Source: Aurantiochytrium sp. KH105
Lineage: Eukaryota; Sar; Bigyra; Thraustochytrida; Thraustochytriidae
Length of the DNA: 64,000 bases
Assembly (NCBI GenBank): GCA_003116975.1
Contig: BGKB01000105.1
Span: forward strand, 62,001 to 126,000
Direction: 5' to 3'
Position numbers and translations under genes: made by a program. Positions 10,364 to 51,173 of the stretch are shown one piece after another (position 1 is the stretch's first letter; each line of letters begins with the position of its first letter). Below the pieces are notes generated by a model. That model did no database searches and was not told the DNA's origin. It worked only from the letters and a program-made list of their open reading frames with translations.

Positions 10364-10890
10364 TTTTTGTGCTCGGCAACGCCACACCAGCGTAGACGCC
10401 AAACTCGTTTCCGGAATACAAGACCACAGGCTCAGCTCTCTCCGCTGCCGTCTCGGCCAAGGTGGCGCGACCGCGTCAAGCGTCAGCCAGCAAGGTGCCG
10501 CAGGCTGGGCTCACGCGCCGCGCCAGGCCACCTCTTCGTCTTTGACGCGGGCGACCGACCGACCACTGAAGCATGGGCTGCTGGGTGGAGGTACTGGAGT
10601 GGCTGAAAATTGACCAAGGCCACTTGACTGCGCACCATGGACCATCAACGGACAACTTGTTCTTCAAGCTCTGGCGGGCACACCTGGCAGCGAGCATGTG
10701 TGCGAGGATGGAGGAGAAGGAGGAGAGTGCCTCGAGATACGATGCTATCCATTTCGAGCAAGGCAGCAAGGCAGCAAGCAAGCAAGCAGGCAAGGCGGTA
10801 AGCACACAAACGAGAAGGCGGCCGGCGGAAAGGCGCGGCCCCGTTTCGGCAAGGTCTTCAGGGCGGCGTCGTCAGCCTGGGTATCGAAAG
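10364..10890. promoter_or_regulatory. Shared divergent 5' region of METTL21-like and WASP genes
   Basis: 527 bases between two divergent start codons, so it must carry both promoters unless there are untranslated 5' exons. GCAAGCAAGCAGGCAAG repeats lie near 10760-10795. No TATA box was identified. Confidence 0.4.
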
Positions 10891-13330: not shown

Positions 13331-14725
13331 TTATTCGACAACCGCGAGCGAGGGAACGGCAAAGGCGGAAGAAGTCCCGGTCGTTTGCGCAGCAACGGCA
13401 CAGACACGACGAATGGCTTCGACGACCTTGTACGGCCCCCGACCCGCGAATCGCTCGCAAAGGGCCTCGAGCGTGGCAGAGTACTTGATCGAGTAGTCTG
13501 ACCAAGCGCCGTCTTCCGTGCATGCGTTCTTGTACGCAGAGTTGGCAGCACGATGGCACTCGTACTCTTGGGGAGACTCTTCACCACGCGCCGTCAGGAC
13601 GGCATCAATGTGACGCGGGTCGTCAAGAAGTTCTGCCGCAAGCTGTGCAAAGGTGGCGTCAACGGCACGGCGATGTTCGACCTCGGCCTGGAGTTGGACG
13701 GCATTCTCTTGGGTGGGTTCGCTCGCGTACATGTAGAATTTGGAGACAAGTGCGACATCGCGTGAGTCGACCTGCGAGTCGCGAGCGGCTGCAGAAATGC
13801 GCGGCAGTTCACGAACAGAGCTACCGTCCGACGCGGGAGCGCCGAGGAACTCGTCAATGGCGTCCTTGGACATGGTGGCGAGATCGCCGAAATCGAGGAC
13901 GTGGCTTTTGGTGGTGGCATTTTGAACACGCGCGAATTGCTCCTCGAGCGTTTCGTCCTGACCGGGGCGCTCGGCGTCCGTGTCTTCCATCCAGTGAACG
14001 CTAAATTCGTCGCCGAGGCAGGTGTGAAGGTGCTTGCCGTTGACGAGATCACCGGCAGGAGGGCAGTAGGTTGCAAACGATGACTCGTGGGCGTTTGCAG
14101 CCGTGACGGCCCAGACGTTGAGATGCGTGGGCAGCTTGCGGAACATGCTGCCGGATTCGCAGGCTTCCATGTAAAAGACAAGATTGCGAAACATTTTCTT
14201 GTCATGCATGCGTTGGATGGAGCGCATGAGCTGGCGCGCATGGAGCTCGCCGCGCGGGAAAGCGACAAGGTTCGGAGCACCGTGGTCGACGAAGTTGATA
14301 AAGACGTCGTCCTCGGCGGTGGACTTGAGCACTGGTCCGCCCTCAGTTTCATCTTCGTTGCCCTCAATGACATTGAGGAACATGGTCGGCGTGACTTGAT
14401 ACTTGGTGTAGTCCTTCTTGCAGTCCTTGTAAACGTCAATCGCCTCGGCGCTGTCCTGGTCGTTGGGACGATTGAACAGCTGGCCAGGAAAGGGGTTCAT
14501 GCGGCTGTCGGCGACATCGTCGTACATCATGGTGATGATGTGATCGTCGGGAATGCCGCGCTCGCGGAGAGAATGGTACGCGTGGCACACATCGGCGTGA
14601 TGCCGGTAATTGAAATACCCGCGCGATCCGCACACCAGAATCGCCCAGCGATCAGCGTGAGCGTGTCCAACCAGAGCCGCCAACGCGGTCGCTAGGAGCG
14701 CCTGCGCAACGTTGAGCTTGATCAT
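13331..14725 (-). CDS. Legumain-family asparaginyl endopeptidase (peptidase C13)
   Basis: 464 residues with a signal peptide (MIKLNVAQALLATALAALVG), so it enters the secretory or vacuolar route. The caspase-like fold is clear: WAILVCGSRGYFNYRHHADV near the N-terminus, catalytic His148 in FINFVDHGAP and catalytic Cys189 in FYMEACESGSM. The family cleaves after asparagine in acidic compartments and matures other proteases. The C-terminal part (about 380-464) looks like the legumain prodomain, with cysteines at the usual places (AYKNACTEDGAW, LEALCERF, IRRVCAVA). Length is slightly above the human protein's 433. Both catalytic residues are intact. It converges with the WASP gene (220 bases between stops). 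It is not a GPI8 transamidase, as no C-terminal membrane anchor is seen. Confidence 0.93.
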   Translation of the reverse strand: MIKLNVAQALLATALAALVGHAHADRWAILVCGSRGYFNYRHHADVCHAYHSLRERGIPDDHIITMMYDDVADSRMNPFPGQLFNRPNDQDSAEAIDVYKDCKKDYTKYQVTPTMFLNVIEGNEDETEGGPVLKSTAEDDVFINFVDHGAPNLVAFPRGELHARQLMRSIQRMHDKKMFRNLVFYMEACESGSMFRKLPTHLNVWAVTAANAHESSFATYCPPAGDLVNGKHLHTCLGDEFSVHWMEDTDAERPGQDETLEEQFARVQNATTKSHVLDFGDLATMSKDAIDEFLGAPASDGSSVRELPRISAAARDSQVDSRDVALVSKFYMYASEPTQENAVQLQAEVEHRRAVDATFAQLAAELLDDPRHIDAVLTARGEESPQEYECHRAANSAYKNACTEDGAWSDYSIKYSATLEALCERFAGRGPYKVVEAIRRVCAVAAQTTGTSSAFAVPSLAVVE

Positions 14726-16640
14726 CTTCGCTTCCGTTGGATCTTATTCTTTGCAGAATGCCTGCGAAGGAGCGTCCAACCCGTCGACGAGGGTCGAGGG
14801 TCGGCTGCGGGTGCCGCACGAATCCTGTCGCGACGTTCCCCTCGCTCGCTCGCTCACTCGCTCACCCACTCGCTCGCTGATAGCTCGTCTTTGTGTTGCA
14901 AGATTGGGCGCCTCCGATCTCCGATCCACTCGGAAACTTCTTCATCATCTTCTTCATTACGTAGTGCTACTAGGCCTAGTAATTTCTCCTAGAAGGCTCC
15001 CAAACCCTCGAAAATCTCGCATGGTGCTATACACGTGCCTGCGACGATCTCTACTATGCACAACCTTGTTGCTCAGATGAGATGCGTTTCACCGATTCAC
15101 ATGCACGCAAACTGAGCTCGAGAATGAGCGTACTGCCATACTTTACGCTAGGTTCAGTTCTTGTGAGACGAGTGAAAGTCTCGCCACCTTAAAAGTTCGT
15201 CTCGAAGATCCAGAATATTTGCCGTGCTAGTTCATGCTTGGAGCGCTCTCAAACATACTTTCATGTTGCATGAAATGGACTAAGGCAGCGGCTGATATGA
15301 TGGGGTGGTCCTCGGCTCGCCAACATTACAAGCGACTTTCTGTGCGTGCTATTTTTAATTTTAAAAAATTAATTAAAATTAAAATCGCACGACTTTTGAG
15401 GCTGCTCATGTCGTTTCCATTTTCCACTAGTGATGCATCAAAGCGCTGCGAGCTCTTCCGCACGTTAATTGACTTTGGCATCACCATTGTCTTGAACCTC
15501 AAGGCGATCGAAAAGATTATTCTCAATATGTTCACGGTGCAAAATGGAAGAAGATCAGAAAAGCTTGCGTCGGAACTGCTTGCCCTCGGGTTCAAGGATA
15601 ACCGATATTAAGGTTTTTCCCTCAGCCTTCATGCACAGCGTTGTCGTCTGATGGATAACAACCTGCATCACCAGATGTGCATTGCAATCCCAATGCCGCA
15701 TGCGCCACTGGACAGCAATCATATTCAAGGACGGCGACAATGACGATCATGGCTCCATGATCGACATAAATGCATTAGCGTACACCGAACATTTTCGCAA
15801 TAAGTTATGCTTTACATGCCAATATACATTGAATTTCCAATCGATGATAAGTGGCAAACATCGAGTCTCGATCCCGGCACCAGCATGTTCACACAAATTC
15901 CGAAGGCAGGAGCACATCATCTATAGCACCTTGGTGGTCATGCGCAGGTCACTTTGCACTCGCGACTGAGGCCGAGTGCGCCTTCTTATGCACTATCTTG
16001 ACATCTTTCATTTCATTTTGAAGAGGATGAGGGGCACGAGCAGTTTTGAAACAACAACGGTGCTCGAAGGAGAACGCTGAGCAGCGAGGAACAGGAGCAG
16101 ATTCGAGAGAACGAAGGTTCCCAGATGAGAACGCTGCGCGCTTGTGTGCAAAAGTCGTGTTTCTGCTCGCAACTTTCGTTCAATGAGATGGTTGACGTTT
16201 ACAGCATTCCATTCATGCTTGTTGCTGTTGATTGATAAGAAGCGCTACGTATGAACACCATCAACAAATAGGATGGCTGGAGATTTTTACTCTCGTCATA
16301 CCTCTCGCGATTACAATGCAAAAAAGAAAAGAGGAAAAACGTTTAACAGTATAGTCATTCTAATATTTGTAGCTGAGATGATTTGCATGATGATCTGGAC
16401 AAATTTTTGGTAAAAGGCTGCTGAGGGCACACGGTCGTGCGACGCGCATCGACTCAAACGCACATAGAGAAAGTTAGGAAAAGAAAAGGCTGGAGTCACT
16501 GGGATGCCCAGGCTTCCTCGTGGTTTCTGGAATTTCCACAAGCAGTCCAGCCATGCGTGCAGGGGCATTCCCATAGAAAGAAAAGAAATTATGCCTAGGT
16601 GACAGTCTGAGAAGAAAAGATAAAACACAATTCGCGCTCT
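14726..16640. other. Lower-GC intergenic island, no recognised gene
   Basis: CTCGCTCGCTCACTCG repeats lie at 14840-14880, close to the legumain start. From about 15000 to 16640 the base composition is clearly less GC-rich than the surroundings. It contains an AT-rich hairpin (15346-15390) and an open frame at 15234-15611 (+, 125 codons from ATG) with ordinary amino-acid composition but no recognisable homology. This may be a remnant of an unidentified gene or element; I cannot assign it. Confidence 0.5.
15346..15390. repeat. AT-rich imperfect inverted repeat (hairpin)
   Basis: Left arm GTGCTATTTTTAATTTT and right arm AAAATTAAAATCGCAC are near-perfect reverse complements around a short A/T loop, giving a stem of about 16 bp. 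It is unusual against the GC-rich background and could form a cruciform or mark the tip of a small mobile element; no target-site duplication could be recognised. Confidence 0.7.
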
Positions 16641-27236: not shown

Positions 27237-27899
27237 GGCGAGACTGCCCGCGGCCGGGCGGGCGATCGAAGTCTGTCTCCGAAGGGGGGAGGGGGGGATA
27301 GAACGCCCGCCCTCTCTCGCCCGGCCGGGCCGGCCGCGCGAGGGAGAAGGGGAGGGACGGAGAGCAGGCAGCAAGGGCAGCCGCGCAGGCAGTGGGCACA
27401 GAGTCGATGGCTTGGTTTTACGTTTTTTTTTTTCTTTATTCTTTCGTTGGTTAGTGTTTCATTTTCATTGGTTGAGAATTTTTTGTTTCCTTTTTTGTTT
27501 TCAAAGTTTTTTGTTTGAAACTTGCTTTTTCCCTTTTCTTTTTTCGTTTTCTTTTTTACTTTTTGTTTGTTTTATCTTCTTTTTGCGCCCGCGCCGCGCC
27601 GTAGCGAGAGAGCAAAAGAAGAACGCAAGCAAGCGAACGAGCAGCCACGGCCGTGGTCCATCAACCGGGCGGGCGGGCGGGTGGGCAACCAAAACCCAAA
27701 CGCGGCGCACAGCCGAAGCGAGCAGCTCGCTCGCAACAAAGCAAAGACAAGAAACGAAGCAAGCAAGGAGTCCTTGGCTCACAGTCTTGAACCGAGTTCT
27801 GACCTTGGCGAGCATCAGCACCAGCAGCATAACGAAGAACTCCAAGACGCAACAAACAAACAAACAACACACCAAAACAACACACAAGAAAACAATAAC

Positions 27900-30473
27900 A
27901 TGCGGACAAACCCCGCCGCAATTGTGCTGGCTGCGACCCTCGCGGCCAGCATCCTCGGACAGAGCCAGGTCTCGGCCCTCGATAGCGACAGGCAGGCTAT
28001 CCACCTCCACGACGACGAGAACGAGGAGGACCGCCTCTTTCATCCCGTCGAGCACTTCTCCGTGCGCCATCTTGATGAAGACAAAATCCAGGTCGACGTC
28101 CGCGCTGGCGATCACGTCTTCGTCTCACACGAGCTCTCGCGCGTGCGCAACTTGTACTCCAAGAACGGCAAGCTCCGTATTGGGTCCCCCGACGGCCAGC
28201 ACATTGTCAAGACTCGGGAAGACAGGCACGCCAAGTTCATCTTTGAAGGCGAGCATGAATTTGGCTGGTTTACCTGCTCGTACCGCCCCAAGGAAAACCG
28301 CGCCCACCTCTTCGTGCACAACGGCACCAAGTCGTTCGAGGTGACTCATCGTGAGCGCTTTCTCATGGACATCAACAGCCGCGACCTCGCGACCCTTCCC
28401 GAGTCTGAATTTTGGCTCGAGGTCACCGGAGCCGACGACACGCTCCTGCCTCCCAACGTCGACGTCAGCGCCGCCGAAAGCTCTCGTCACCTCCGTCGCA
28501 ACCTTGATGCTGATGACGAGGAGGAGGAGGACGACGACGACACGGACTGCGGCGAGCGCACTGCCCCCGATGATGTGATCCTTAAGAGCAAGAATCTCAA
28601 GGACCTGAACATTCTTCCCGGCGATGAGACCGCTGAGATCAACCGCCTCGTCAAGGCTGGCTATGAATCGAGGAACGCAACCAGGACGAAAAAGTCTGCA
28701 GTCGTCAAGACTGCCGACTTGAGCAGCAATGAGCTCTCGCCTGCGGGTCGCCGTCTCGCCGATGCCTACGCCTTCACCCCGGACTGCTACACGGACGATG
28801 ACCGCGTGCACGAGGTCCTGGTGAACGTCATCTCTGATGCCGCATTCTACGCAATCTATGGTTCAGAGGACGACGTCCAAGAGGCCTTTGAGACGGCTAT
28901 CGCCCGGGCGTCCCAGGTGTACACGATCCAGATGAACATTAAGCTCGTCATTCAGGATACGTGGATTGCGACCGATACCGCGAGCCCGAGCAGTTGGCCT
29001 GACTTTGCCGACTACACGGAGAGCGATGGGTGCCCTTACGATCTCTCTGACCAGCTCGATGACCTCACCACCTGGGTGCGAACCCTCGATGACGACGAGG
29101 AGCAAGCTGCGCACTTTCACCTCTTCACTGGCTGCAGCGCCAGCTCTTCTGGTGTCGCCTACGTCGGTACGCTCTGCAACCTCAACTACAACACTGGTGT
29201 GACCAAGAAGACGAGCAGGACATGGAAGACCTTTGCCCACGAACTCGGCCACGGCTTTGCTGCCACGCACTCCTTTGAAAACGGAATGTACACCACGGGT
29301 GGCATCATGGACTATGGCGACGGAACGATTCTTGGAACGAGCCTGTACCGCTTCCGCCTTGCGCGCCGCGATCAAATGTGCGGAGAGTTCGAGACGGCCC
29401 TTTCTGGCTCTTGCGCTTTCATCAACGTTTACGACGATGATTCGGGCTGTGGCAACACTGTCATCAGTGACGACGAGGAGTGCGAGTGTGTCGATGGATC
29501 CACCAGCTGCAATGGTTGCAAGAACTGCAAGCTCACTGACGACACGGTCGAATGCAGTACTTCGAAGTTTTACATGGTTGCCTCTGGGTCTCCTTATTCT
29601 ACAGGCGCTCTCTCGGACGAGGAGTGCTGCGTTGACAACAAGCTTCTTACGGCCGACACTGCGTGTGATGATGGTTACTGCGGTGGCGGTGGTCTGTGCA
29701 CCAACCCGTGCACGAGCGACTCCTTGTCTCCGTGTGGCTACAAGAACAGCGGCTGCCGCGTCAAGTGCACGGACGGTAGCACCTGCAGCTACAACTGGAG
29801 GGTGAACAGCGTGTACGTTGGCTATGCCGACTACGGAACGCCTTGCACGACCGACGATGGCGCCGAGGGCATCTGTGGCGATGGCACGGGTGTCTGCACC
29901 TACTCGGGCCCGCCCACACCGAACCCAACAAAGTCCCCCACGAAGGCTCCCACGAGTTTCCCGACCAAGGCTCCTACCAGCTCTCCGACGTCCTTTCCTA
30001 CGAGTTTCCCAACCGATTACCCCACGGCATCTCCTACCGCGGCGCCTTCGGTGCTCAAGGGCGTCTCGTTTCCCTCGAAAAAGTGTGCCAAGAAGAACAG
30101 GAAGTGCAAGATCACCGAGGACGGCCTCGCCCGCTTCGGCAACAATGATAACTACGCTTTTTACGCTTTCGAGGACATCACCAAGAAGACCAAGTTCAAG
30201 TGCAATGAAAACACTTTTGGCTTCGACCCCATCCCGGACCAAAAGAAGAAGTTCTGCTGGTTCGCCCCCATGACTTTTGATTTCGAACTCCTCGCCAAGA
30301 ACGGCAAGTCGGGCACCGTGACCAAGGCCGGTATCGTCCGCTACGGAGTTGAGGACAAGTACGTCTTTAAGACTTACGAGTCCAAGACATCGATCAAGTG
30401 CAATGCAGACGAGTTTGGCGTCGATCCTGCGCCGAATTCGAGTTCCAAGAAGTGCCACGTCAGCTACTTTTAG
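27900..30473 (+). CDS. Secreted ADAM-like zinc metalloprotease, copy 1
   Basis: 857 residues, no intron. ATG 27900 begins a signal peptide (to about residue 26); the preceding 60 bases are CA-rich leader. A prodomain (about 27-285) ends near an acidic run and basic sites (RHLRRN near 196, GRRLADAYAF). The catalytic domain has HELGHGFAATH with zinc ligands His447, His451, His457 and base Glu448, and the Met-turn GGIMDYG (Met470), the metzincin pattern. The Gly usual at the eighth motif position is Ala. A Cys-rich disintegrin-like region follows (about 520-665), then a PT-rich stalk (about 671-716, PTKSPTKAPTSFPT-like), and two copies of an unrecognised module of about 65 residues sharing RFG/RYG, FGxDPxP and paired Cys. 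It likely acts outside the cell or at the wall. A close paralogue lies 6.8 kb downstream on the same strand. Confidence 0.88.
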   Translation: MRTNPAAIVLAATLAASILGQSQVSALDSDRQAIHLHDDENEEDRLFHPVEHFSVRHLDEDKIQVDVRAGDHVFVSHELSRVRNLYSKNGKLRIGSPDGQHIVKTREDRHAKFIFEGEHEFGWFTCSYRPKENRAHLFVHNGTKSFEVTHRERFLMDINSRDLATLPESEFWLEVTGADDTLLPPNVDVSAAESSRHLRRNLDADDEEEEDDDDTDCGERTAPDDVILKSKNLKDLNILPGDETAEINRLVKAGYESRNATRTKKSAVVKTADLSSNELSPAGRRLADAYAFTPDCYTDDDRVHEVLVNVISDAAFYAIYGSEDDVQEAFETAIARASQVYTIQMNIKLVIQDTWIATDTASPSSWPDFADYTESDGCPYDLSDQLDDLTTWVRTLDDDEEQAAHFHLFTGCSASSSGVAYVGTLCNLNYNTGVTKKTSRTWKTFAHELGHGFAATHSFENGMYTTGGIMDYGDGTILGTSLYRFRLARRDQMCGEFETALSGSCAFINVYDDDSGCGNTVISDDEECECVDGSTSCNGCKNCKLTDDTVECSTSKFYMVASGSPYSTGALSDEECCVDNKLLTADTACDDGYCGGGGLCTNPCTSDSLSPCGYKNSGCRVKCTDGSTCSYNWRVNSVYVGYADYGTPCTTDDGAEGICGDGTGVCTYSGPPTPNPTKSPTKAPTSFPTKAPTSSPTSFPTSFPTDYPTASPTAAPSVLKGVSFPSKKCAKKNRKCKITEDGLARFGNNDNYAFYAFEDITKKTKFKCNENTFGFDPIPDQKKKFCWFAPMTFDFELLAKNGKSGTVTKAGIVRYGVEDKYVFKTYESKTSIKCNADEFGVDPAPNSSSKKCHVSYF
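29911..30047 (+). repeat. P-T-x-x coding repeat (stalk) in metalloprotease copy 1
   Basis: Tandem 12-base coding units giving PTxx tetrapeptides, probably an O-glycosylated stalk. Copy 2 has a shorter and different series at about 39284-39400, so unit number changes quickly. Confidence 0.85.
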
Positions 30474-36400: not shown

Positions 36401-37252
36401 AGCGAGCGGCGGCGGCGCGGTCGTTAGTGGCGCGAGTGTGGCCGAGAAGACTCGGAGAAAAGAAAGAGTGAAGTGTCAGTGGAGAGCAAAGCAGGAGCGC
36501 CGCGCCGAGCCGAGCTGCACCTGGCGGGAGAGAGAGGGAGAGGGAGCAGAGGCGGCTTCGCTGTCGCAGCTGGCTGGCCGCTGCCAACGGCGCGCGCGGC
36601 GGCCAGCTAGGCAGGTCGAGCCGGGCAAACCAACCCGGATTCAGCCCGCCAGGGAGGACTACGTAGTTTCACAAACATACTACTACTACAAACAAGCAGA
36701 CAAACTGCACGACTCGCGCAACAAAGGCTTTCCTTCCTCTCCGAGTCTTTCTTCCTTCCTTCTCTCCCTACCGTCCATACATCCGTCCATACGCACATCG
36801 CAGCACGCGCGGCTCGGCTTCTTGCGCGACCTGACCGCGCCTGACCCGGCTCGGCTCGCGCGCCCTTGGCTCGACTCCACGCGCCTTGACTGGCGCAGAG
36901 TAGAGGGATAGAGAGAGAGAGGGAGGGAGGGAGAGGAAGGTGGCAAAAGCACTCGAGCGGCGCCGCGCGAGGCAAGCAAATCCAAAAAGGGCGAGCCGCG
37001 GCGAGGCCAGGCCTTTGAGCAGCCAACGCTCACGCAACAGCAGCAGCAGCAGCAGCAGCAGACTGCAAAGGACGTACTACTCGTCGAGCAAGCGAGCGAG
37101 CTCCGCGTAGCTTGGACCGGGAGCAGCAGCCTTTGGCGAGCTCGCACTTTGGCTGGGAGCCTTGGCTGATCGATTGATTGAGCCATTGAACGCCAACCAA
37201 GGTGGCCGCCCGAAGCAGAGCCAAAGCAAAAGTAGCGAGCTAGAAAGGCACA
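30474..37252. other. 6.8-kb intergenic between the metalloprotease copies
   Basis: No supported gene. The first kilobase is moderate in GC and holds a TTGATTGATTG-type run near 30895-30910. From about 31600 on it is GC-rich low-complexity DNA like that upstream of copy 1, with a GCAGT-rich array at 32443-32580, TTTC runs near 35860 and a GCAGCA run at about 37039-37062. I see no obvious long match to the region upstream of copy 1, so the duplicated unit may be little more than the coding region. Confidence 0.5.
32443..32580. repeat. Degenerate (GCAGT)n array
   Basis: About 140 bases of GCAGT units interrupted by GCAGA, GTACA and similar variants. One strand reads GTGCAGTGCAG repeatedly. Confidence 0.85.
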
Positions 37253-39826
37253 ATGCGATCAACAACCGCAGCGCTAGTCCTGGCTGCGACCCTCGCAGCC
37301 AGCATCCTCGGGCAGAGCCCAGTATCAGCGCTCGAGAGCAGCAAGCAGGCCATGCACCTTCACCACGACGAAAACGAGGAGGACCGCCTCTTCCACCCCG
37401 TCGAGCACTTCTCCGTGCGTCGCCTCGACGAAGACAGGATTCAGATTGACGTCCGCGCCGGCGAACATGTCTACGTCTCGCACGAGCTCTCGCGCGTACG
37501 CCACTTGTACGCCAAGAACGGCAAGCTCCGCATTGGATCCCCCGACGGCCAGCACATTGTCAAGACTCGGGAAAGCAGGCATGCCAAGTTCATTTTTGAG
37601 GGTGAGCACGAATTTGGCTGGTTCACCTGCTCCTACCGCCCCGAAGACAATCGTGCCCATCTCTACGTGCGCAACGGCACCAAGTCCTTCGAAGTTACCC
37701 ACCGCGAGCGCTTTCTCAAGGACATCCACAGCCGCGACCTTGCGACTCTTCCCGAGTCCGAGTTCTGGCTCGAGGTCTCCGGAGCCGGCGACTCGCTCCT
37801 GCATCCCGACGTTGATGTCAACGCCAACACCGCCAAGAGCCCTCGCCACCTCCGTCGTAACGCTGCTAGCGACGATGACGAGGAGGAAGAGGAAGAGGAA
37901 GAGGATACGGACTGCAGCCAGCGCACTGCCCCCGATGATGTGATTCTCAAGAGCCAGGATCTGGAGGACCTCACCATTCTTCCCGGCGATGAGACCAAGA
38001 AGATCAACCGTCTCGTGAAGGCTGGATACGAGTCGAGGAACGCAACTCGAACCAAAAAGTCTGCTCTTGTCAAGACCGCAGATCTGACGACGAACGAGAT
38101 CTCGCCTGCGGGTCGCCGTCTTGCCGACGCCTACGCCTTCACCCCGGACTGCTACACCAACGATGACCGCGTCCATCAGGTCTCGGTCAACGCCATCGCT
38201 GATGCTGCATTCTACAGCATCTATGGGTCCGAAGATGACGTTCAAGAGGCCATCGAAACGGCTGTCGCCAAGGCGTCCCAGGTGTACACGATCCAGATGA
38301 ACATCAAGCTCGTCATTCAGGATACGTGGATTGCGACTGATGGATCGATCCCTAGCAGCTGGCCCGATTTTGCAAGTAATAAAGAGGGCAGCGGCTGCCC
38401 CTATGATCTCTCGACGCAGCTCGACGATCTCACCGCTTGGGTGCGAAAGCTTGACGATGACGAGGAGCAAGCCGCGCACTTTCACCTCTTCACTGGCTGC
38501 AGCGCCAGCTCTTCTGGTGTCGCATACGTCGGTACGCTCTGCAACCTCAACTACAACACTGGTGTGACCAAGAAGACGAGCAGGACTTGGAAGACCTTTG
38601 CCCACGAACTCGGCCACGGCTTTGCTGCCACCCACTCCTTTGAGAACGGAATGTACACCACGGGTGGCATCATGGACTACGGCAATGGGCAAATCCTCGG
38701 AACGAGCCTGTACCGCTTCCGCCTTGCGCGCCGCGATCAAATGTGCGGAGAGTTCGAGACGGCTCGTTCCAGCTCTTGCGCTTTCATCAACGTTTACGAC
38801 GATGAGTCGGGTTGCGGCAATGGCGTCATTGCTGATGGGGAAGAATGCGAGTGCGCCGATGGATCCACCAACTGCAACGGTTGCAAGAACTGCAAGCTCA
38901 CTGACGACACGGTCGAATGCAGTACCTCCAAGTTCTACATGGTTGCCGCTGGATCTCCTTACTCCACAGGCGGATACTCAGACAAGGAGTGCTGCGTTAA
39001 GAACAAGCTCCTCACGGCAGATACTGCGTGCAGCGATGGCTATTGCGGTGGCGGTGGGTTGTGCACCAACCCGTGCGAGAGCGACTCCTTGTCTCCGTGT
39101 GGCTACAAGAACGGCGGCTGCCGCGTTCAATGCACGGACGGCAATACCTGCAGCTATAACTGGAGGGTGAACGGCGCGTACGTTGGCTATGCCGACTACG
39201 GAACGCCTTGCACGACTGACGATGGCGCCGAAGGCATCTGTGGCGATGGCACGGGTGTTTGCAAGTACTCGGGCCCGCCGACCCCCAAGCCAACAAAGTC
39301 CCCCACGGCCTTTCCCACAAAGTACCCCACGTACGCCACTACGAACTACCCTACCAAGTCTCCCACCAAGTCCCCCACCCCTTTTCCGACCGCGTCTTCG
39401 ACGGTACTCAAGGGCGTTTCGTTTCCCTCCTCAAAGTGTGCCAAGAAGAACAAAAAGTGCAAGATCACCGAGGACGGTCTTGCTCGTTTTGGCAAGGACG
39501 ACGTCTATGCATTTTACGCTTTTGAGGATATCTCTGACACGACCAAGTTTTCGTGCGACGAAGACACTTTTGGCTTCGACCCCAACCCAGATGAGAACAA
39601 AAAGCTCTGCTGGTTCACGCCAATGGCTTTCAACTTTAAGCAGCTTGCGAAGGACGGAAAGTCGGGCACTGTCAGTGATGCAGGCATCGTCCGTTATGGA
39701 GCTGATGACAAGTATGTTTTCAAGGTCTACGATTCCAAGACCAAGATCAAGTGCGAGGCGGACGAATTTGGCGCTGACCCCGCTCCGAACTCGAATGCGA
39801 AAAAGTGCTTTGTCAGCTACTTTTAG
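37253..39826 (+). CDS. Secreted ADAM-like zinc metalloprotease, copy 2
   Basis: 857 residues, the same length and plan as copy 1 (27900-30473): signal peptide to about residue 26, prodomain with an acidic run, catalytic motif HELGHGFAATH (His451, Glu452, His455, His461), Met-turn GGIMDYG, Cys-rich disintegrin-like region, PT stalk and two C-terminal modules ending in KCFVSYF. ATG 37253 is the first Met of the signal peptide and aligns with the start of copy 1. All zinc ligands and the catalytic Glu are intact, and Ala again replaces the usual motif Gly, so both copies look active and inherited this change from the duplication ancestor. The two differ in stalk repeats and acidic run. Nucleotide identity is much higher around the active site than elsewhere. 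Confidence 0.88.
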   Translation: MRSTTAALVLAATLAASILGQSPVSALESSKQAMHLHHDENEEDRLFHPVEHFSVRRLDEDRIQIDVRAGEHVYVSHELSRVRHLYAKNGKLRIGSPDGQHIVKTRESRHAKFIFEGEHEFGWFTCSYRPEDNRAHLYVRNGTKSFEVTHRERFLKDIHSRDLATLPESEFWLEVSGAGDSLLHPDVDVNANTAKSPRHLRRNAASDDDEEEEEEEEDTDCSQRTAPDDVILKSQDLEDLTILPGDETKKINRLVKAGYESRNATRTKKSALVKTADLTTNEISPAGRRLADAYAFTPDCYTNDDRVHQVSVNAIADAAFYSIYGSEDDVQEAIETAVAKASQVYTIQMNIKLVIQDTWIATDGSIPSSWPDFASNKEGSGCPYDLSTQLDDLTAWVRKLDDDEEQAAHFHLFTGCSASSSGVAYVGTLCNLNYNTGVTKKTSRTWKTFAHELGHGFAATHSFENGMYTTGGIMDYGNGQILGTSLYRFRLARRDQMCGEFETARSSSCAFINVYDDESGCGNGVIADGEECECADGSTNCNGCKNCKLTDDTVECSTSKFYMVAAGSPYSTGGYSDKECCVKNKLLTADTACSDGYCGGGGLCTNPCESDSLSPCGYKNGGCRVQCTDGNTCSYNWRVNGAYVGYADYGTPCTTDDGAEGICGDGTGVCKYSGPPTPKPTKSPTAFPTKYPTYATTNYPTKSPTKSPTPFPTASSTVLKGVSFPSSKCAKKNKKCKITEDGLARFGKDDVYAFYAFEDISDTTKFSCDEDTFGFDPNPDENKKLCWFTPMAFNFKQLAKDGKSGTVSDAGIVRYGADDKYVFKVYDSKTKIKCEADEFGADPAPNSNAKKCFVSYF

Positions 39827-42007: not shown

Positions 42008-42475
42008 GATTTGCAAGAGGTTTCCTCCCAAACATCCCCAAAAGGCCCATGCAGAAAAAGCCAGGAATAGGAATTCATCGACTTGAAGCGATAGCATGGT
42101 CATGATTTGCAAGGGACTTCTCAGTTGTTCAAAAACAACGAGTTTCTTCCCACTTGCAGTCGTAGGATGGTCATGATTTGCAAGAGGTTTCCTCGCTCTG
42201 TCCAGACTACTCTACTTGATCAAAAACAACGAGTTTCTCCACTTGCAGTCGTATGGTGGTTTATAATTTGCAAGGGGCTTCATCGCTTGTCCAAAACGCC
42301 CCAAGAGGCACATGCAGAAAGAGACGGGGACATGAATTTATCCACTTGCAGCGATAGCATGGTCATGATTTGCAAGGGACTTGTCAGCTGTTCGAAAACG
42401 ACGAGTTTCTCCCCACTTGCAGTCGTAGGGTGGTCATGATTTGCAGGGGGCCTCTTCGCTTGTCCAATACACTTT
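42008..42475 (-). repeat. Tandem repeats of the 3' end of the HNH-like gene
   Basis: Six copies of a (G/A)ATTTGCA(A/G)G-headed unit start at 42008, 42104, 42175, 42265, 42367 and 42438, with spacings of 96, 71, 90, 102 and 71. Units are of two kinds that partly alternate: one with CACTTGCAGTCGTA, one with a CATGCAGAAA segment. The copy at 42438 is the last coding part of the gene at 42434-43306. Read on the minus strand, the copy at about 42265-42300 still encodes FWTSDEAPCKL then a stop, against YWTSEEAPCKS then a stop in the gene. Terminal codons plus 3' flank were therefore duplicated in tandem. Confidence 0.85.
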
Positions 42476-43306
42476 GACGGGTTGATAAAGGAAACCTGGT
42501 GACGACACTTCTACTTCATTGAGTGCGAAGTATACGAAGGCAAAGATTCCGCCTGCAGCATGATAAGGACGTAAAGCTCCAAGATGAAGCTTCAAGACGG
42601 GTGGCGTCCACTTATTTGGTTTCCAGTTGCGCGCGGCTTGCGCCTGCAGGCGTGAGCATGGCGCGCATTGCGGGAGAAAGACCTGCTGAACGTCTTGATT
42701 CACAAGACGGCGCCAGATTCCCATCTCTGCACTCGCGCGAAGCTTGCTCGGTGGCATGTGGTCTGCGTGGAAGGAGGCACGACCCTTTCCATGCCCACCT
42801 TTCGTGCCACACGTGTGGCATCCATGTTTTTTACCCAAGCGCTCAATAGTAGCACGCTGCGCAGGGCGCGCATAGGCTCGCCCTGCAGGGATACTCTCGC
42901 GGGCGAACGCCCCTGGACGCAAGACGTCGCTCGGGAGCGTGCTCGCAAATCGACCGCCCATGGCCTTGAAGACGGCAAGGATTCCGGCCACGCCCCACGC
43001 TCGGGCCTCCATAGATTCCAGCAAAACAAACGGACTACCACGACGCGAGCGCCCTGCAGCCCGTGCGGCCTCTTGCGACGCCGTGGCGGCACCAAGAGTC
43101 AGGACCGCGCCCGCGAAGGAGCTCAGGCCGGGAACTGCGCAGCTGAGACCCAGCGCCACGGCCACGAGCTGGCCGCACGCCAGGCTCACCAGAAACGCAT
43201 AGCCTCCGGCCAGAGCGCCTGCGCCCACGCGCAAGACCTGCGCCGTCCTCTCGCCCGCGCGACCTGCCTGAGGCGCCTCGGTCGCCTCGGTTCTGGTCGT
43301 AGCCAT
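42434..43306 (-). CDS. Membrane protein with C-terminal HNH-like zinc site
   Basis: 290 residues from ATG 43306; the frame extends to 43375 only from a GTG. Two Ala/Gly-rich hydrophobic segments lie near 26-53 and 62-83. The C-terminal half has a treble-clef/HNH-type pattern: C163-H-T-C166, then FHADHMPP (H180, D182, H183), then FLPQC214-APC217-SRLQ. In HNH proteins such CxxC pairs hold zinc and the ADH histidine activates water for phosphodiester cleavage. Whether this one is a nuclease or only a zinc-binding fold cannot be told, and a membrane-tethered nuclease would be unusual. Another hydrophobic stretch (AAGGIFAFVYFALNEV) follows. Its last codons and stop lie in the first unit of the repeat array at 42008-42475. 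Confidence 0.7.
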   Translation of the reverse strand: MATTRTEATEAPQAGRAGERTAQVLRVGAGALAGGYAFLVSLACGQLVAVALGLSCAVPGLSSFAGAVLTLGAATASQEAARAAGRSRRGSPFVLLESMEARAWGVAGILAVFKAMGGRFASTLPSDVLRPGAFARESIPAGRAYARPAQRATIERLGKKHGCHTCGTKGGHGKGRASFHADHMPPSKLRASAEMGIWRRLVNQDVQQVFLPQCAPCSRLQAQAARNWKPNKWTPPVLKLHLGALRPYHAAGGIFAFVYFALNEVEVSSPGFLYQPVKVYWTSEEAPCKS

Positions 43307-43766
43307 CCATGCGCGGTATCGAAGCTGGCTGCTCCAAGTCGAATCAGCAGCGCAGATGTATTTCCCGAGTCCCACCAGCCAGCCAGGCGTCTTCCGCGGC
43401 GGTACGTTCGCTCGAGACCAGACCAGACCAGACCAGACCAGACCAGAATAGAACAGACGTCGAGCGGCAGCGACGGCGCGAAAGGGGGTCTCTGTCTGTC
43501 TGTCTGGTTGTCAAGCTTTGCGCGACGACAAACAAGGCGTCGCCGTTACACCTCTCTTCAGGATTGGGACGAATTCTGATCTGGGTGTAAGGTGTGGTGG
43601 CCGTCGCCGCCATTGACATGACGTAGACTCTAGATTTCTCCATGTAGATTGCGAAATGGCTCGCTTCATCAAGGTTATTATATCTATTTATGTTTGTATT
43701 CTACGCACTGCCGGTGGGCTAGCTAGCTAGCTGAGGGCCTCTTGTCCGCTCGCTCCTCCGGCGTGA
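43307..43766. other. Intergenic with (GACCA)n array
   Basis: About 460 bases between two minus-strand genes. It holds a perfect GACCA pentanucleotide array at about 43415-43447 close to the HNH-like gene's start, and CTAGCTAGCTAGCTAG near 43718. No gene seen. Confidence 0.6.
43415..43447. repeat. (GACCA)n pentanucleotide microsatellite
   Basis: Six tandem GACCA units seen directly, about 110 bases upstream of the HNH-like gene's ATG. Confidence 0.95.
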
Positions 43767-46091
43767 TCACATGAATGCATTGCGGAAAAAGTTGCGGCTT
43801 GACGGCGCCTGCTGCTGCTGCGGCGGGCCCTGCTGGTACCCGTTAAAGCTCTGGTGCGAGCTGTAGCGGTGCATGGGCGAGCCGGGCGGGCCGCCCTGCG
43901 CGAAGCGAGGGTCAGGCCCCATCATGGACATGGACTCGGTGCTTTGGGCGCGGTGCATCATATGGCCCTGGTGCTGCTGCTGCTGGGGATGTCCCTGTCC
44001 GTAGGCGTCAAAGTTCTGGCCTCCGTACTCCGTGGACGCAAAGCTGCCGCTGCGCGGGTAGCTCGCCACGCGCTGGTTCGGGTCCTCCTGCATGTACGAG
44101 CCGGCGCGCGAGCGCGGATCAAAACCCATGTCGCCGTCCACCTGGCCCGGCAGCGTGCCGGGCGAGACCTGACGCGTAGAAGCTGCGCTGCGGGGAGCAG
44201 CGTCATCTTCCGGACCGTAGGCGCCATATGCCGGACCGTCGGCCGGGCCCTGGTAGTAAGGTTCCGCGCCGGGAGAGTGCTCGCGCTGGTCCTCGATCGT
44301 GCGGAACGAACGTTCGCTCTCGTCGTCAGGGTGCGCCGACGGGGACCTGTGCATGCCCTGGACGTTGTCGTACAGCTTGCGCTCGATGTCCGCAGAAACA
44401 TCAATGTCGCGCCAGTGTGCGGCCGCGTCCTTCCAGTGCGAGACAAGCTCGTAAATGTGATTCTCATCCAGGATGTGGCGAATGACACCGTCGCAGATCG
44501 TCCGCTGGCGCTCCTCGCGCTCGAGGACGTCGACCATGTTCTCCTCTTCAAAGGTGTATCCGAGGACGGGCAAGTAATACGGCTTGCGGTGGTAGTGCGT
44601 GCGGAAGCGCTGGATATCCACGCGCTTCTCCGCGGAGACCGAGAGGTTAACAAAGATCACGTGGTAGGTGCCGAGGTGGTCGCGCTTGAGCATGTTCACG
44701 GCCATGTTCACGTCAAAAGCGAATTCCGTAATGATTCCGGTCTGGTTGAGCATGAGGCTAAAGAGGCGCTGCATCTCAATGCGCGGCTCAATGATGAGCA
44801 CTGCAGGGCTGCGACGACCAATCGTGCGGCGAATGCGACGCTGCTTGAGCGCGTCCTCCGAAATGTCGCCCATCTTGATCTGCTTAGCCGTGAGGTTCGA
44901 AGCATACGGAGATACGGCGTGCTGCGCGGCGTAACGTGAAGTGTACGGCTCCAAAACAACAAAGCGCACATACCACACCAAAAAGCCACACATGTTCTTG
45001 GCAAAGAGGTCTCCGACAGCGTCTCCGATTTTGTCCGTGGCTTCGTCCACGAGATCGAAGACAGGAGGTCCAATGAAGTACAGAACCGGAAAGAAAGTCC
45101 AGGAAACGAAAAACGTCACCAGGGCGAAAATGATCCAGTTCCATGCACCTTCAGAGTGCGCGACAAAGTGCTTCTTGCGTATCGCGGCGAGCTTGACCAT
45201 ATCGTACGCGAGCCAGAGCTGCGCAATTCAACATCGTCCGTTTCCATCATATTCTCTGGTTGTTAGTGTCACGAGGTTTGCTTCCTTACTGTTTCCTCAA
45301 CCCATTCCAGCACACAGTCTTGCCTTCTCTATGGTTTGAGATGCCAAGTCCACGACTTCTCTTAGGGCATGAGCTCTACGCTAAAGAAATCGCGCTCTCT
45401 TCTTCCTGACGAACTTACAGCAATCAACGTCGCGGCGCCAACAAAGACTCCCTTAAGGGCAGGCTCGGTCTGGGCGGCGCCAAGCATACCAAAGCAAATC
45501 ATAAAGATGTCCTTCACCATCATGAAGATCGTCTTCCCCATGTCGAGAAGGTCAGGTACGAAGAGATGCAGGAGAACGCACATGTTCGAAATGATCACCG
45601 GGCAGCACACTGTGGAGCGAAGGTCAGCAACCAAAGGAGACGAAGATCATCGTCGATGAAGCCGGTCTGTCAGTATATCTAATGTTGCCCAATCCATCGG
45701 CAAGAACTGCTCGAAAATGAGTCCTTCCTAAAGCAAACTTACTCATCCAGAAAATGTAGCGGCCCAAGGCAAATTCAAAGTGCTCATCACTGTTAACGTC
45801 CACGCGCACATCAAGGTTCATGTAGCTAGTAGTGACAAAAGTGCTGAGGCAGTAGTACACGCAGGTAACCATCTGGACAAAGATGGGCGCCAGGTTGCAG
45901 CGCTTCGCTTGCCATTGTGCAGAGTAAAAGAGCAGCAGGAATGCGGAGCACACAAAGACGCAGAGACGCGCGCCAAAGACTCCCGACGGCAGCTCGTTCG
46001 TCGCGAGAAAGCGCGGTTCCTCAAACATCATGTCAGCGTCGTCAATCATGTTCAGCGAGTCGTCCTGCGTCAGGGACATCAGGTCCGCCAT
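43767..46091 (-). CDS. Channelrhodopsin-like protein with pseudo-receiver domain, copy A (three exons)
   Basis: Exons 46091-45743, 45609-45419 and 45218-43767 join in frame across GT-AG introns of 133 and 200 nt, giving 663 residues. Seven membrane helices align with channelrhodopsins: TM3 RYIFWMMCCPVII (Arg111, Phe114 at the usual carboxylate counterion site, Cys119), TM4 MMVKDIFMICFG (Asp150, partner of the Cys in the DC gate), TM6 FFVSWTFFPVLYFIGPP (Trp220 and Pro224 of the retinal pocket), TM7 VGDLFAKN (Asp250 and Schiff-base Lys254). TM2 has no glutamates. A receiver-like fold follows (VLIIEPRIEMQRLF), with Asn371 where the phosphorylated Asp should be, then a conserved SHWKDAAAHWRDID helix and a Gln/Pro/Met-rich tail. 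Expected role: light-gated ion channel or sensor, perhaps at the eyespot or flagellar membrane. It is head-to-head with copy B. Confidence 0.88.
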
Positions 46092-48278
46092 CGTGTCTAT
46101 CGATCTGTCCGTCCGTCCGTCCGTCCGTCTGTTAAACGGGTGTTGCAGGCTCTAATTTGCAAGAAGTAAGCTCCCTACTTGAGCGAACGAAGCTTTGCGC
46201 GACTTCGGTTCGCTGCGCACCTGCGCTGCGCTGTGCTGCGCTGCGCTGCGCTGCGCTATGCTATGCTTTGCTAGGCCAAGCAAGACGTGCTGTGGCTTGA
46301 GTTGGCTTGGCTTGGCGTCGCGTGGCTTGGCTCGATGTACACTCCTTCCCCCGCCCCTTCGGCTTTGCTAGGTTCGATGACCTGTCTTGATCTGACGTTG
46401 ACCTCGGCCGAAACACCCGAGACGGCTGTGCACAGCCCGAAAGAGGTTTGCCATCGAGATCCTTCCATCCAACGATTTCCGAGCCATGTGTAGACGGCAA
46501 AAGAGAGGATAGCTAAGTCTCGTTCGCTTCCATGAGTAAGTGTAGACTAGACAACTGCGTCCGTCCATGGAGTCTTACATCCCTCAACATCCATCAACTG
46601 ACATATTTTAGCTCGCATACCTCCGCGGTGGAAGTCCACAACGCCGTGCGCGTCACGAACAGTCGCGCAGCTGCCCTGGATGCGGGGTGCTGGTGAACGG
46701 ATATGATCCGTTTGCGGTTCATCACTGTGAAATGATGAGGGCCCCACGACGAAAAAAAACTATCCGTTGACCGGAACTTGGTGCCACTGTGGCGCCTTTG
46801 TATTCAGGGAGCCACCGCAAGTCCTCGCCACTGTGGACGCTGCTAAGGCGACTCGTTCGGAAACTATGCGCAAAGCGGCCTCGCCGAGCGGTTGAAAGCA
46901 ACGTACACTACAGTCTGCCATTGCTCAAAGTAAACGGAATCTAACGCGGATGATTTGCGACCCATCGCGCTGAGCCGGACTCGACGCGTTGGATAGGCAA
47001 CGCGCACAATGTCCGTTTTTCTTTCTCGCGCGTAAAAGAGATCACCGTTGCGGGCCAGCCTTGCGGTTTAATCTCCCCCCCTATGAAAACTTATTTTGCC
47101 TTCACCTAGCGTCTCCGCGTAGGCTCATCTACGATCAGCTCTGAAAGAAAGAAAGCGGTATAACCAGGGCCGAATGTCAACGGATTATCGCCAATTGTCT
47201 TCGTTTGAGGGCCTACCCTTCCCCCCCCTTTGTCTGATTCGAATCAGCTAGTATCAACCCAGGAGGACTGTGTTTGCTTGATTCCGTGCGCACGCTGGCT
47301 GGCAAGCGGTGCCTCTTCAAGTGTCCATCCGAACTTCGACTCCAGGCTCTTGTTTGGCCGAACGAAGACCGTCTCGTACAGATATAATTTGGTAAGAGGC
47401 TGCCCGGACGAGAAAAACGTGAAACCCGGTTTCGTGCCCGAGTGGTCGGCCAGGCAGTCGCGCTCTTGTGCGCGCCAAACACTGCTAGTGACACAGTGTC
47501 ACCCGTTCAGGAAGAAATGAGTTTTTTCCTAATTTTATTGCAAAGTTCAACCTGAGCCAAGCTCAGGCGTGTCTTCAAGATGCCTCCGGCAGAAGACGCC
47601 TCTCAACGGCACGCAGTCTGGCAAACAGACAGACGAGCGGACGCTCGATCAGAGCGTGACGCGGCCGCCATAAGCCTGGTCGAAAATGGGTCCGTTGCGA
47701 TATGCTCGTTGCGCCGATGTATTGATGAACGGGACCTGTACACAGCGATACACAAGTCACCGCAACAGTGTCCGTTGAGCGATCCGGTGAGGGCAGGTGC
47801 GTCGCCGAGCCGACACCTTGACAGTGACGCTCTGTACGCTGCGAGATCAAGAGGAAGAAGAAGGAGGAGAAGATGAAGAAGGCAATATAGGAAGCGTGAT
47901 ACGGAGCAAACCCTTCCAGTGCGGAAAACGGCTTCGACTCGAGTCGCGCGTCAGGTGCGTCCAAAACCCTTAACGAGCTCTCGAGCGTGTCGGGTCGATC
48001 GAGCTTCGGGCTGAAGGCTGGCTGCCATCTTCGCGCCTTCCTTCATCCAGCTTGTTGGAGACCGGCCGACGGAAGTATCAACTGGCTCATCGATAGATCA
48101 AATTGTTTGGAAGACCAGGACGACGACAACGACGACAACGACGACGTACACCTGATCAACAAGTCTTCCCTCGAGAGGGGTTTGGAGACCGATATCGTTA
48201 GCAAGACAGCACGAGCAAGGCTGAAAGAAGAAGGACAAGAAGAAAACCAAGAAAGAAGGCCTTGACGAGCAAGGCACA
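46092..48278. promoter_or_regulatory. 2.2-kb region between the divergent channelrhodopsin-like genes
   Basis: It must hold the promoters of both genes. Near copy A there is a CTGCG/CTATG pentanucleotide array (46221-46269) and a CCGTCCGTCCGT run just before the ATG. The middle (46550-47550) is of moderate GC with no convincing frame. Near copy B, GACGACAACGACGACAAC lies at about 48119-48143. No gene was recognised and no specific operator could be named. Confidence 0.45.
46221..46269. repeat. (CTGCG)n pentanucleotide array
   Basis: About nine CTGCG/CTATG-like units seen directly, 130-180 bases upstream of copy A's ATG. Confidence 0.9.
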
Positions 48279-50216
48279 ATGAGCTACAACGAGTCGGTGT
48301 GGCGCGAAGACTTCGCACAAGTTCTTCTCGCTCGGCCCAAAAACTCTGGCGTGGTCTCGCAGGGTGTCGCAGGTGCTCGTCTGTGCGTGTTTTCGTGCAG
48401 TATCGCACTTCTCTGCTTCTATGGCTTTCAGTGGAGAATCGGACGTTGCAATCTGCATCCCATCTACGTGCAGTTTGTCACCTTTTGCGTGTATATTCTC
48501 TCATGCTTTGGAACCACGGACTTTCTCTACATTCCCGTCGTTGACCATGCCGGCGTAACCTTCGATCTCGCCATTGGTCGCTACCTCTTCTGGATGATGA
48601 CCTGCCCGGTGATCATTTCCAACGTAAACATTCTTCTCAACATCATGACGCCCGATGACATTGAGCTGCCCCAGGTGACGTTTATGATGGTCAAGGATAT
48701 TGTCATGATTGCCTTTGGTGTGCTGGCAGCCATGCAGCAGAACATCACGCTTAAGTGGATCTTCAACCTTGCGTCGTACTTTGTGTGCTTCTGGCTGGTG
48801 GCAGATCTCATCGTCCTCATGAACGAGAAGAAAAAGTTCTTTATGGTGTACGAGCGCTGCTGGGAGTGGATCTTCGCCGTCATGATTTACTTCTTTTGCG
48901 CGCAAAGTCTTTTCATCTTTCTCTACGCGGTTGGCCCGCCCTGCTTCAACATCATGGGACCGGACGGCGACCGCATTGGTCACTCGGTCGGTGATCTCTT
49001 CGCCAAGAACCTCTTTGGCTTTTTCGCCTGGTACGTGCGCTTCGTTGTCCTTGACCCGCATGTGAAGCGCATCCGCGGCGCGCGCGCGGTGTCGCCGTAC
49101 GCCATGCGCCCCGCGGCCGCCACCGATCAGACCTCGAACAGGGTCTCCTTCCTCGGCCGCAAGACCAACACGAAGAAGACCACGGCCGGCCCCCGCCCCC
49201 CGCGCCTGCTCATCGTGGAGCCTAAGATCGAGCTCCAGCGCCTCTTCATGTTCATCCTGCGCGACGCCGGCATCGAGGGCGAGATCGCCTTCGATCTTGA
49301 GTCCGCGACCAAGATCATCCGCCGCGATTCGCTCACGCACTACGACGCCATTCTGCTCAACCTCACGGTGGCCTTTGAGCAGCGCATCGCCACGCAAAAG
49401 TTCCGCATGCAGTTCCGCCGAAAGCCCTTCTACCTTCCCCTGCTCGGCTACTGCTTCGACGACAACTACGCCCCGCTCGCGGAGCGCGAGGAGGTCGAGC
49501 GCAACCTTTCGGACGGCTTCGTGCGCCACGTGCTCGACGAGACCCATCTCTTCGATGTGGTGTCCCACTGGCGCGAGGCCTCGGGCCACTGGCGCGAGAT
49601 CGACGACTCTGCGGACATGGAGCGCCGCCTGCACCAGCACGTGCAGGGCGTGCACATGTCGCCCGTCGAGGGCCACGGTGACATCGGTAGCATGAGCCTC
49701 GTGGACACCAAGTACAGGGCCGCAGACGAGCAGCCGCACACCACCAACAGCGGCAACTCGAACAACTCACGGGACCGCGAGCCGCGCACCGCCATGATGG
49801 TGGAGTCGCCGACGAGCCCCGGCAGCCCCTCGGACACGCGCTCGGTCTCGGGCCAGGCGCCGCAGCAGCCAAAGTCGGGCGGCGCGCGCATCTCGCTGCG
49901 CCGCAAGAGCTCCTTCGAGACCATGAACGACAACCTGCGCCACCAGCTCAAGGTCGAGGAGGAGCAGGTCGCGCGCCTCAAGCAGCAGGAGGACCGCCAG
50001 CAGGTGCAGTCCCCGGTCACCGCCGGCGACGACTACCAGCAGCAGTCTTCGGGCCGCGGCTACTACGAGCCGCCCTCCAGCATCGACTCGCAGGCCGAGC
50101 CGCCCTCAAGCCGCAGCGCCACCAACTCTGCCGCCGGCAAGGACGACGACCTCGCCGACGAGGAGCTCGGCCCCAAGCGCCGCACCAGCCTCATCGTCAA
50201 GGGCTCTATGATGTGA
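48279..50216 (+). CDS. Channelrhodopsin-like protein with pseudo-receiver domain, copy B (intronless)
   Basis: 645 residues in one exon. Seven helices align with channelrhodopsin: TM1 GARLCVFSCSIALLCFYGFQ, TM2 from CNLHPIYVQF with no Glu, TM3 RYLFWMMTCPVIISN (Arg101, Phe104 at the counterion site, Cys109, Asn115), TM4 MMVKDIVMIAFG (Asp140), TM6 FFCAQSLFIFLYAVGPP, TM7 VGDLFAKN (Asp239, Schiff-base Lys243). In TM6 the retinal-sandwich Trp is Gln209 and the conserved Pro is Ile213, unlike copy A. After a basic linker comes a receiver-like domain (LLIVEPKIELQRLF, about 308-400) with Asn361 in place of the phospho-Asp, then a helix with SHWREASGHWREIDD (429-443), and a Ser/Gln-rich tail with a short coiled-coil-like stretch. 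It lacks the proton-pump residues, so a channel or sensor role is favoured. Its intronless form, against three exons in copy A, suggests an old duplication with intron loss or a retrocopy origin. Confidence 0.88.
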   Translation: MSYNESVWREDFAQVLLARPKNSGVVSQGVAGARLCVFSCSIALLCFYGFQWRIGRCNLHPIYVQFVTFCVYILSCFGTTDFLYIPVVDHAGVTFDLAIGRYLFWMMTCPVIISNVNILLNIMTPDDIELPQVTFMMVKDIVMIAFGVLAAMQQNITLKWIFNLASYFVCFWLVADLIVLMNEKKKFFMVYERCWEWIFAVMIYFFCAQSLFIFLYAVGPPCFNIMGPDGDRIGHSVGDLFAKNLFGFFAWYVRFVVLDPHVKRIRGARAVSPYAMRPAAATDQTSNRVSFLGRKTNTKKTTAGPRPPRLLIVEPKIELQRLFMFILRDAGIEGEIAFDLESATKIIRRDSLTHYDAILLNLTVAFEQRIATQKFRMQFRRKPFYLPLLGYCFDDNYAPLAEREEVERNLSDGFVRHVLDETHLFDVVSHWREASGHWREIDDSADMERRLHQHVQGVHMSPVEGHGDIGSMSLVDTKYRAADEQPHTTNSGNSNNSRDREPRTAMMVESPTSPGSPSDTRSVSGQAPQQPKSGGARISLRRKSSFETMNDNLRHQLKVEEEQVARLKQQEDRQQVQSPVTAGDDYQQQSSGRGYYEPPSSIDSQAEPPSSRSATNSAAGKDDDLADEELGPKRRTSLIVKGSMM

Positions 50217-50767: not shown

Positions 50768-51173
50768 NNNNNNNNNNNNNNNNNNNNNNNNNNNNNNNNN
50801 NNNNNNNNNNNNNNNNNNNNNNNNNNNNNNNNNNNNNNNNNNNNNNNNNNNNNNNNNNNNNNNNNNNNNNNNNNNNNNNNNNNNNNNNNNNNNNNNNNNN
50901 NNNNNNNNNNNNNNNNNNNNNNNNNNNNNNNNNNNNNNNNNNNNNNNNNNNNNNNNNNNNNNNNNNNNNNNNNNNNNNNNNNNNNNNNNNNNNNNNNNNN
51001 NNNNNNNNNNNNNNNNNNNNNNNNNNNNNNNNNNNNNNNNNNNNNNNNNNNNNNNNNNNNNNNNNNNNNNNNNNNNNNNNNNNNNNNNNNNNNNNNNNNN
51101 NNNNNNNNNNNNNNNNNNNNNNNNNNNNNNNNNNNNNNNNNNNNNNNNNNNNNNNNNNNNNNNNNNNNNNNNN
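50768..51173. other. Assembly gap (406 Ns)
   Basis: Run of N from 50768 to 51173. The true size is unknown. At least one gene (the exons starting at 51174) is cut by it. Confidence 1.

Follow-up and report, generated by a model that had tools for sequence, protein, structure and literature searches.

The described systems closest to the two genes analyzed here, A and B, are channelrhodopsins and a rhodopsin with a receiver-type domain. Both genes lie in a stretch of 64,000 nucleotides of Aurantiochytrium sp. KH105 (contig BGKB01000105.1, positions 62,001 to 126,000), which we call the window. The RubyACRs of Labyrinthulea (HfACR1 and AlACR1) are anion channelrhodopsins (ACRs) reported at 590-610 nm (PMC10147648). 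HfACR1 of Hondaea fermentalgiana has the GenBank accession MT002469 (PMC10147648). Its action spectrum is at 610 nm and its absorption at 595 nm (PMC8815786), and F104, M143, and A242 are residues of its retinal pocket (PMC12448745). The predicted B protein is like the RubyACRs in Phe104/Met143/Ala242, in four residues assigned to the ring side of the pocket (N/Y/Q/I), and in the glutamate-free region of transmembrane helix 2 (TM2). The A protein has the Phe, Met, and Ala in common with the RubyACRs, whereas none of the four ring-side residues is found in it. By its ACR pattern without the Ruby ring-side pocket, A would be expected beside AlACR2 and AlACR3 of A. limacinum, a placement set by residue pattern only. 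Among the green-algal proteins, C1C2, ChR2, and Chrimson are the best structure matches of the seven-transmembrane (7TM) parts of A and B. The homologues of their Lys257, Asp253, Cys128, Asp156, and Arg120 are retained, whereas Glu82, Glu83, Glu90, Glu97, Glu101, and Glu123 are absent in A and B. In Cop5/HKR1 of Chlamydomonas, as in A and B, the rhodopsin is followed by a receiver-type domain (PMC7693036). In contrast to Cop5/HKR1, A and B possess no phospho-acceptor Asp, and no kinase or cyclase was found with Pfam and NCBIfam in B and exon 3 of A.

We propose, with a probability of about 0.8, that A and B encode two labyrinthulid ACRs, of which B is HfACR1-like and A is a paralogue, probably for shorter wavelengths, and that their pseudo-receiver tails serve docking or localization. 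For this we rely on the gene structure, the homology, the residue patterns, and a weak receiver match above that of shuffled sequences, and from these we infer the anion selectivity, both colours, the role in zoospores, and the docking role. The main interest of the locus lies in its head-to-head pairing, in the different pocket types of the two members, and in the pseudo-receiver tail conserved in both. Both gene models were rebuilt, and an intronless gene (B) and a three-exon gene (A) were again obtained in divergent orientation about 2.2 kb apart, as had been described in the original prediction; the start codons are separated by 2,187 bases. The two introns of A (133 and 200 nucleotides) both begin with GTAAGT and end with CAG. 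A 7TM profile, itself built from A and B, recovers the frames of the gene A exons in the window. In the profile search of the 64 kb, no further frame of at least 40 amino acids resembling the rhodopsin part or the C-terminal domain was detected. A distance of 2.2 kb from one start codon to the other is, taken alone, no indication of a shared promoter. The longest stop-to-stop open reading frame (ORF) wholly within the intergenic stretch has 155 amino acids (47575-48042, minus strand), and two weak inverted repeats are present there.

When B and exons 1 and 3 of A were scanned, Bac_rhodopsin was the sole Pfam family above the cut-off (E 1.3e-16 for B and 1.1e-7 for exon 3 of A by itself). Exon 1 scanned alone gave no Pfam family, and NCBIfam gave no match for B or exon 3 of A. 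The profile and the Schiff-base lysine in TM7 (Lys243 in B, Lys254 in A) assign both predicted proteins to the microbial (type 1) rhodopsins. In the PDB search, B matched 17 distinct sequences at E ≤ 0.01. C1C2 was at the top (3ug9, 3.1e-16), followed by iC++, Chrimson, ChR2, and KnChR; HcKCR2 was found at 1.8e-4, and other microbial rhodopsins did not appear before 0.0022. With the spliced 7TM part of A, 74 matches were obtained at E ≤ 1. In the ranking of the best 60 of these 74, the same algal channelrhodopsins were on top (1.3e-13), other microbial rhodopsins started at 2.6e-7, 5azd and 3am6 outranked KnChR, and ChRmine and GtACR1 had 0.0097 and 0.32, respectively. As judged from these matches, A and B are channelrhodopsins, nearest to the green-algal type among the solved structures. 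The Pfam and PDB results support the channelrhodopsin identity that had been proposed from the letters, and the motifs named in support of it (GDLFAKN, RY-F-W, TCP/CCP, VKDI, and GARLCVF...FY..Q) are all present. The alignment with green-algal channelrhodopsin, which had been claimed along the whole length, was observed in the 7TM part only. Viral contigs were also searched for relatives, and none of the stretches obtained was related (2 with B as the query, 23 with the alignment of the A and B 7TM parts); the phage records searched with B gave no match. The family is already known, and B itself has probably already been characterized.

We then compared the residues of the channel at positions taken from the PDB-search alignments and the A/B alignment. 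The numbering is that of CrChR2 and is anchored on Lys257, a number that we take from general knowledge. The six glutamates listed above are replaced, in the same order, by H/P/T/S/T/F in B and A/P/T/S/T/F in A; Asn258 is retained in both, in addition to the five residues already named. Labyrinthulid-type ACRs are described by a non-carboxylate residue at the Asp85/Glu123 position and by the absence of Glu90 (PMC8818676, PMC8406140); both A and B have Phe at the former position and Thr at the latter. All ACRs then known lacked a carboxylate at the Asp85 position, and this is insufficient as proof of anion selectivity (PMC8818676). The residue pattern of A and B fits labyrinthulid ACRs; anion conduction is not proven thereby. 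At the level of this pattern, which in both proteins lacks Glu123 and the five glutamates of the TM2 region, the anion-type reading of the original prediction stands.

The same paper gives a point against this reading, that selectivity is not readable from these glutamates alone (PMC8818676), and this leaves room for the view that A and B, or A alone, are cation-conducting channelrhodopsins in which the context makes up for the lost glutamates. The best sequence matches of both are green-algal channelrhodopsins, which are mostly cation channels, and in the cation channel NlCCR, too, the counterion position is occupied by Phe (PMC12448745). However, the loss of all six glutamates in both proteins fits the descriptions of labyrinthulid ACRs. 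In addition, no labyrinthulid ACR is among the PDB matches listed (17 for B, the best 60 of 74 for A), and algal best matches are therefore expected. Thus weighed, cation conduction seems improbable to us.

The retinal pocket links B with HfACR1. F104, M143, and A242 of B stand at exactly the numbers published for HfACR1, and the Schiff-base lysine follows at 243. In A, the same Phe, Met, and Ala are found at 114, 153, and 253. At the four ring-side positions, B possesses N163, Y167, Q209, and I213, and A possesses V173, T177, W220, and P224. Three of these four residues are named as unique to the RubyACRs: the changes W142Y, W182Q, and G186I in MsACR1 mirror them, and F138N is named alongside (PMC11473104). 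Since only B of the two has the RubyACR ring-side residues, A and B are not equivalents. B is probably HfACR1 or an orthologue in the same register, and A is best described, from its residues, as a diverged paralogue of B with a different pigment pocket. Without the ring-side residues, A may be expected to absorb at a shorter wavelength. In the 2020 RubyACR paper, the ACRs of A. limacinum reportedly lie near 485, 545, and 590 nm.

Several points weigh against this assignment. The equation of B with HfACR1 is based on the three numbered positions and the pocket residues, not on an alignment with HfACR1. N163 and Y167 were matched to F138 and W142 of MsACR1 through a gapped alignment to an algal protein and the equal spacing. 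As for the colour, A retains the three residues (Phe, Met, and Ala) at which substitutions cause large blue shifts in HfACR1 (PMC12448745). The RubyACR-mirroring changes gave MsACR1 no red shift, except for a small one by F138N (PMC11473104). NlCCR is blue-absorbing despite the same Phe, Met, and Ala (PMC12448745); therefore, the colour is not fixed by the pocket residues alone.

Homology between A and B covers most of the two proteins (blastp E 1.6e-147). Among the aligned pairs, 116/234 were identical in the 7TM part, 11/40 in the linker, 5/28 in the N-terminus, and 36/155 in the low-complexity tail. In the receiver-like domain, the identities were 28/62 in the first part and 49/92 in the rest (77/154 together). 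By these counts, the receiver-like domain is conserved between A and B as well as the 7TM part is, and the linker and the tail are less so. Different codons were used at 112 of the 233 residues identical in A and B (Met and Trp left out). Because of these codon differences and the identity figures, the duplication is judged not to be recent. A might be a decaying or silent duplicate beside an active B, as it departs from B at several pocket positions and the window holds no sign of expression for either gene. Against this, A is open through 663 codons, has canonical splice sites, and retains the Schiff-base and gate residues. Furthermore, the differences between A and B are commonest at the third codon position (0.42, 0.31, and 0.57 at positions 1, 2, and 3 of 461 codons). 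We consider a silent A very improbable.

The C-terminal domains were analyzed with a PhoB-family receiver profile, for which 93 receiver domain matches were taken from 81 loci translated in six frames. The isolated B domain scored 14.2 bits and the A domain 11.5 bits. None of 1000 shuffles of the B domain reached 14.2 bits (710 were reported with a score, the best being 7.2), and one of 1000 shuffles of the A domain exceeded 11.5 bits (837 were reported, the best being 13.5). In the profile-profile comparison, the profile of the A and B domains matched the receiver family with a probability of 83% across 59 columns. This value was reached by 0 of 200 column shuffles, the best two of which gave 55% and 49%. 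Against the PDB, the same profile retrieved four sequences at E ≤ 10, namely CheY twice, a Fis-family regulatory protein, and a sensor kinase. The matched stretches of the latter two look like receivers in the alignment. The receiver match is mostly confined to the first half of the receiver.

Other results speak against a receiver. The best PDB E-value of the A and B domain profile was 0.12. For neither domain did Pfam report a family at E-values up to 10, in a search in which the HMMER filters drop most weak matches, and the receiver-profile search of the window frames with default filters found nothing, A and B included. The AlphaFold models, for which the inputs were the receiver-like domain (2 rows) and B residues 1-472 with the A exons as separate rows (4 rows), had mean predicted local distance difference test (pLDDT) values of 36 and 39 and contained no receiver fold. 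PADLOC also gave nothing for the C-terminal domains of A and B. In the common receiver register, the first acidic residue is retained (Glu314 in B, Glu324 in A). In contrast, Asn takes the place of the phospho-acceptor Asp, and Pro that of the second acidic (Mg-binding) residue, in both proteins. Thus the C-terminal domain, if it is a receiver at all, would be a pseudo-receiver. Its degenerate character had been foreseen correctly from the letters; of the receiver fold proposed with it, the profile statistics above the shuffles give weak support and the AlphaFold models give none.

With a receiver-like domain behind the 7TM part, A and B could alternatively be sensory rhodopsins that signal through a receiver phosphorelay in the style of histidine-kinase rhodopsins, the channel being a by-product or lost. 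The identity of 77/154 in this domain, beside 116/234 in the 7TM part, agrees with such a role. However, the Asn and Pro at the two positions are found in both proteins, Pfam and NCBIfam detected neither a kinase nor an output domain in B or exon 3 of A, and the homologues of C128 and D156 are retained. A phosphorelay thus has very little to recommend it over a pair of ACRs with pseudo-receiver tails. No labyrinthulid ACR with a receiver is mentioned in the accessible parts of PMC12558739 and PMC7693036; since the literature covered consists of openly licensed papers only, we make no claim of novelty for the tail or the pair.

Because of the family membership, retinal isomerization and a light-gated conductance are expected. 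Light of about 590-610 nm would isomerize the retinal on Lys243 of B, and the 7TM part would then open an anion conductance. A would possess the same kind of conduction pathway, probably with absorption at a shorter wavelength. Together, A and B may change the membrane potential of the zoospore in response to two colours and so allow photo-orientation. The pseudo-receiver would be unable to accept phosphate in the usual way and is most likely a docking or localization module, followed by a putatively disordered tail. Common regulation and heteromers of A and B, as suggested in the original prediction, are conjectural, like the docking role. Phototaxis is considered a likely role of thraustochytrid channelrhodopsins (PMC8818676). 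In A. limacinum, the AlACR1 protein drops significantly upon zoospore settlement, whereas AlACR2 and AlACR3 do not change in this way significantly (PMC12221091). As for the supply of retinal, carotenoid genes are reported for H. fermentalgiana, where, in the accessible part of the source, the retinal-forming Blh was not found; according to the abstract, blh and/or rpe65 genes occur in every member of the group (PMC10016063).

If A absorbs at a shorter wavelength, the pair would offer a simple example from nature of how a protist without photosynthesis senses light of two colours. A further step would be a single two-colour unit, in which the RubyACR and the shorter-wavelength ACR form a mixed complex via their 7TM parts and pseudo-receivers at one site of the zoospore, so that red is compared with blue-green. 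We regard such a complex as unlikely; if it existed, channelrhodopsins would have a scaffold module in the pseudo-receiver. A receiver-like domain without a phosphorylation site, common to neighbouring genes with differing pockets, is a concrete target for study.

Table. Coordinates of the features at the A/B locus (window numbering) and their predicted properties
Feature	Position	Strand	Description
Gene A	exons 46091-45743, 45609-45419, 45218-43767 (stop included)	minus	663 amino acids, 0 internal stops
Gene A exon 1	45743..46091	minus	start codon at 46091; ends in TM3 at ...GRYIFWM
Gene A exon 2	45419..45609	minus	remaining TM3, TM4, start of TM5; CCP, VKDI
Gene A exon 3	43767..45218	minus	TM5-TM7 (Lys254, Asp250), receiver-like domain at residues ~315-473, tail rich in S/P/Q/G, stop codon
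Receiver-like (pseudo-receiver) domain of A	44340..44816	minus	Asn371 in place of the phospho-acceptor Asp, Pro325 in place of the second acidic residue
A-B intergenic stretch	46092..48278	none	2,187 bases, GC 0.55
Gene B	48279..50216	plus	645 amino acids, intronless, RubyACR-like channelrhodopsin
Gene B protein parts			7TM ~29-262, receiver-like ~304-462, low-complexity tail 463-645
Gene B key residues			Schiff-base Lys243, Asp239, Phe104, Met143, Ala242
Receiver-like (pseudo-receiver) domain of B	49188..49664	plus	Asn361 in place of the phospho-acceptor Asp, Pro315 in place of the second acidic residue

The window as a whole has a GC content of 0.573 and contains 406 N. These form one run at 50768-51173, an assembly gap located some 550 bases downstream from gene B. 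The introns and the gene content speak for a eukaryote, and neither the tRNA search (bacterial settings) nor Rfam gave a match of use for placing the organism. On the other side of the locus, gene A is adjoined by an ORF of 358 amino acids (42434-43510, minus strand), for which no Pfam match was obtained at E 0.01. Its translation has hydrophobic stretches and the Cys/His motifs HTCGTKGG, FHADHMPPS, and CAPC, which we take to be reminiscent of an HNH-type zinc site. Beyond this ORF, an 89-base unit is repeated in tandem at 42125-42293 (about two copies, 85% matches). Farther away in the window, an ORF at 10570-13110 (plus strand) contains a WH1 and a P21-Rho-binding domain, a WASP-like combination, and the ORF at 13331-14743 (minus strand) encodes a legumain-like peptidase (Peptidase_C13, 5.3e-97, with a legumain prodomain). 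Two ORFs with reprolysin-like (M12B) metalloprotease domains are found about 7 kb apart at 27519-30473 and 37244-39826, both on the plus strand (Pfam E 2.5e-20 and 1.1e-20, respectively).

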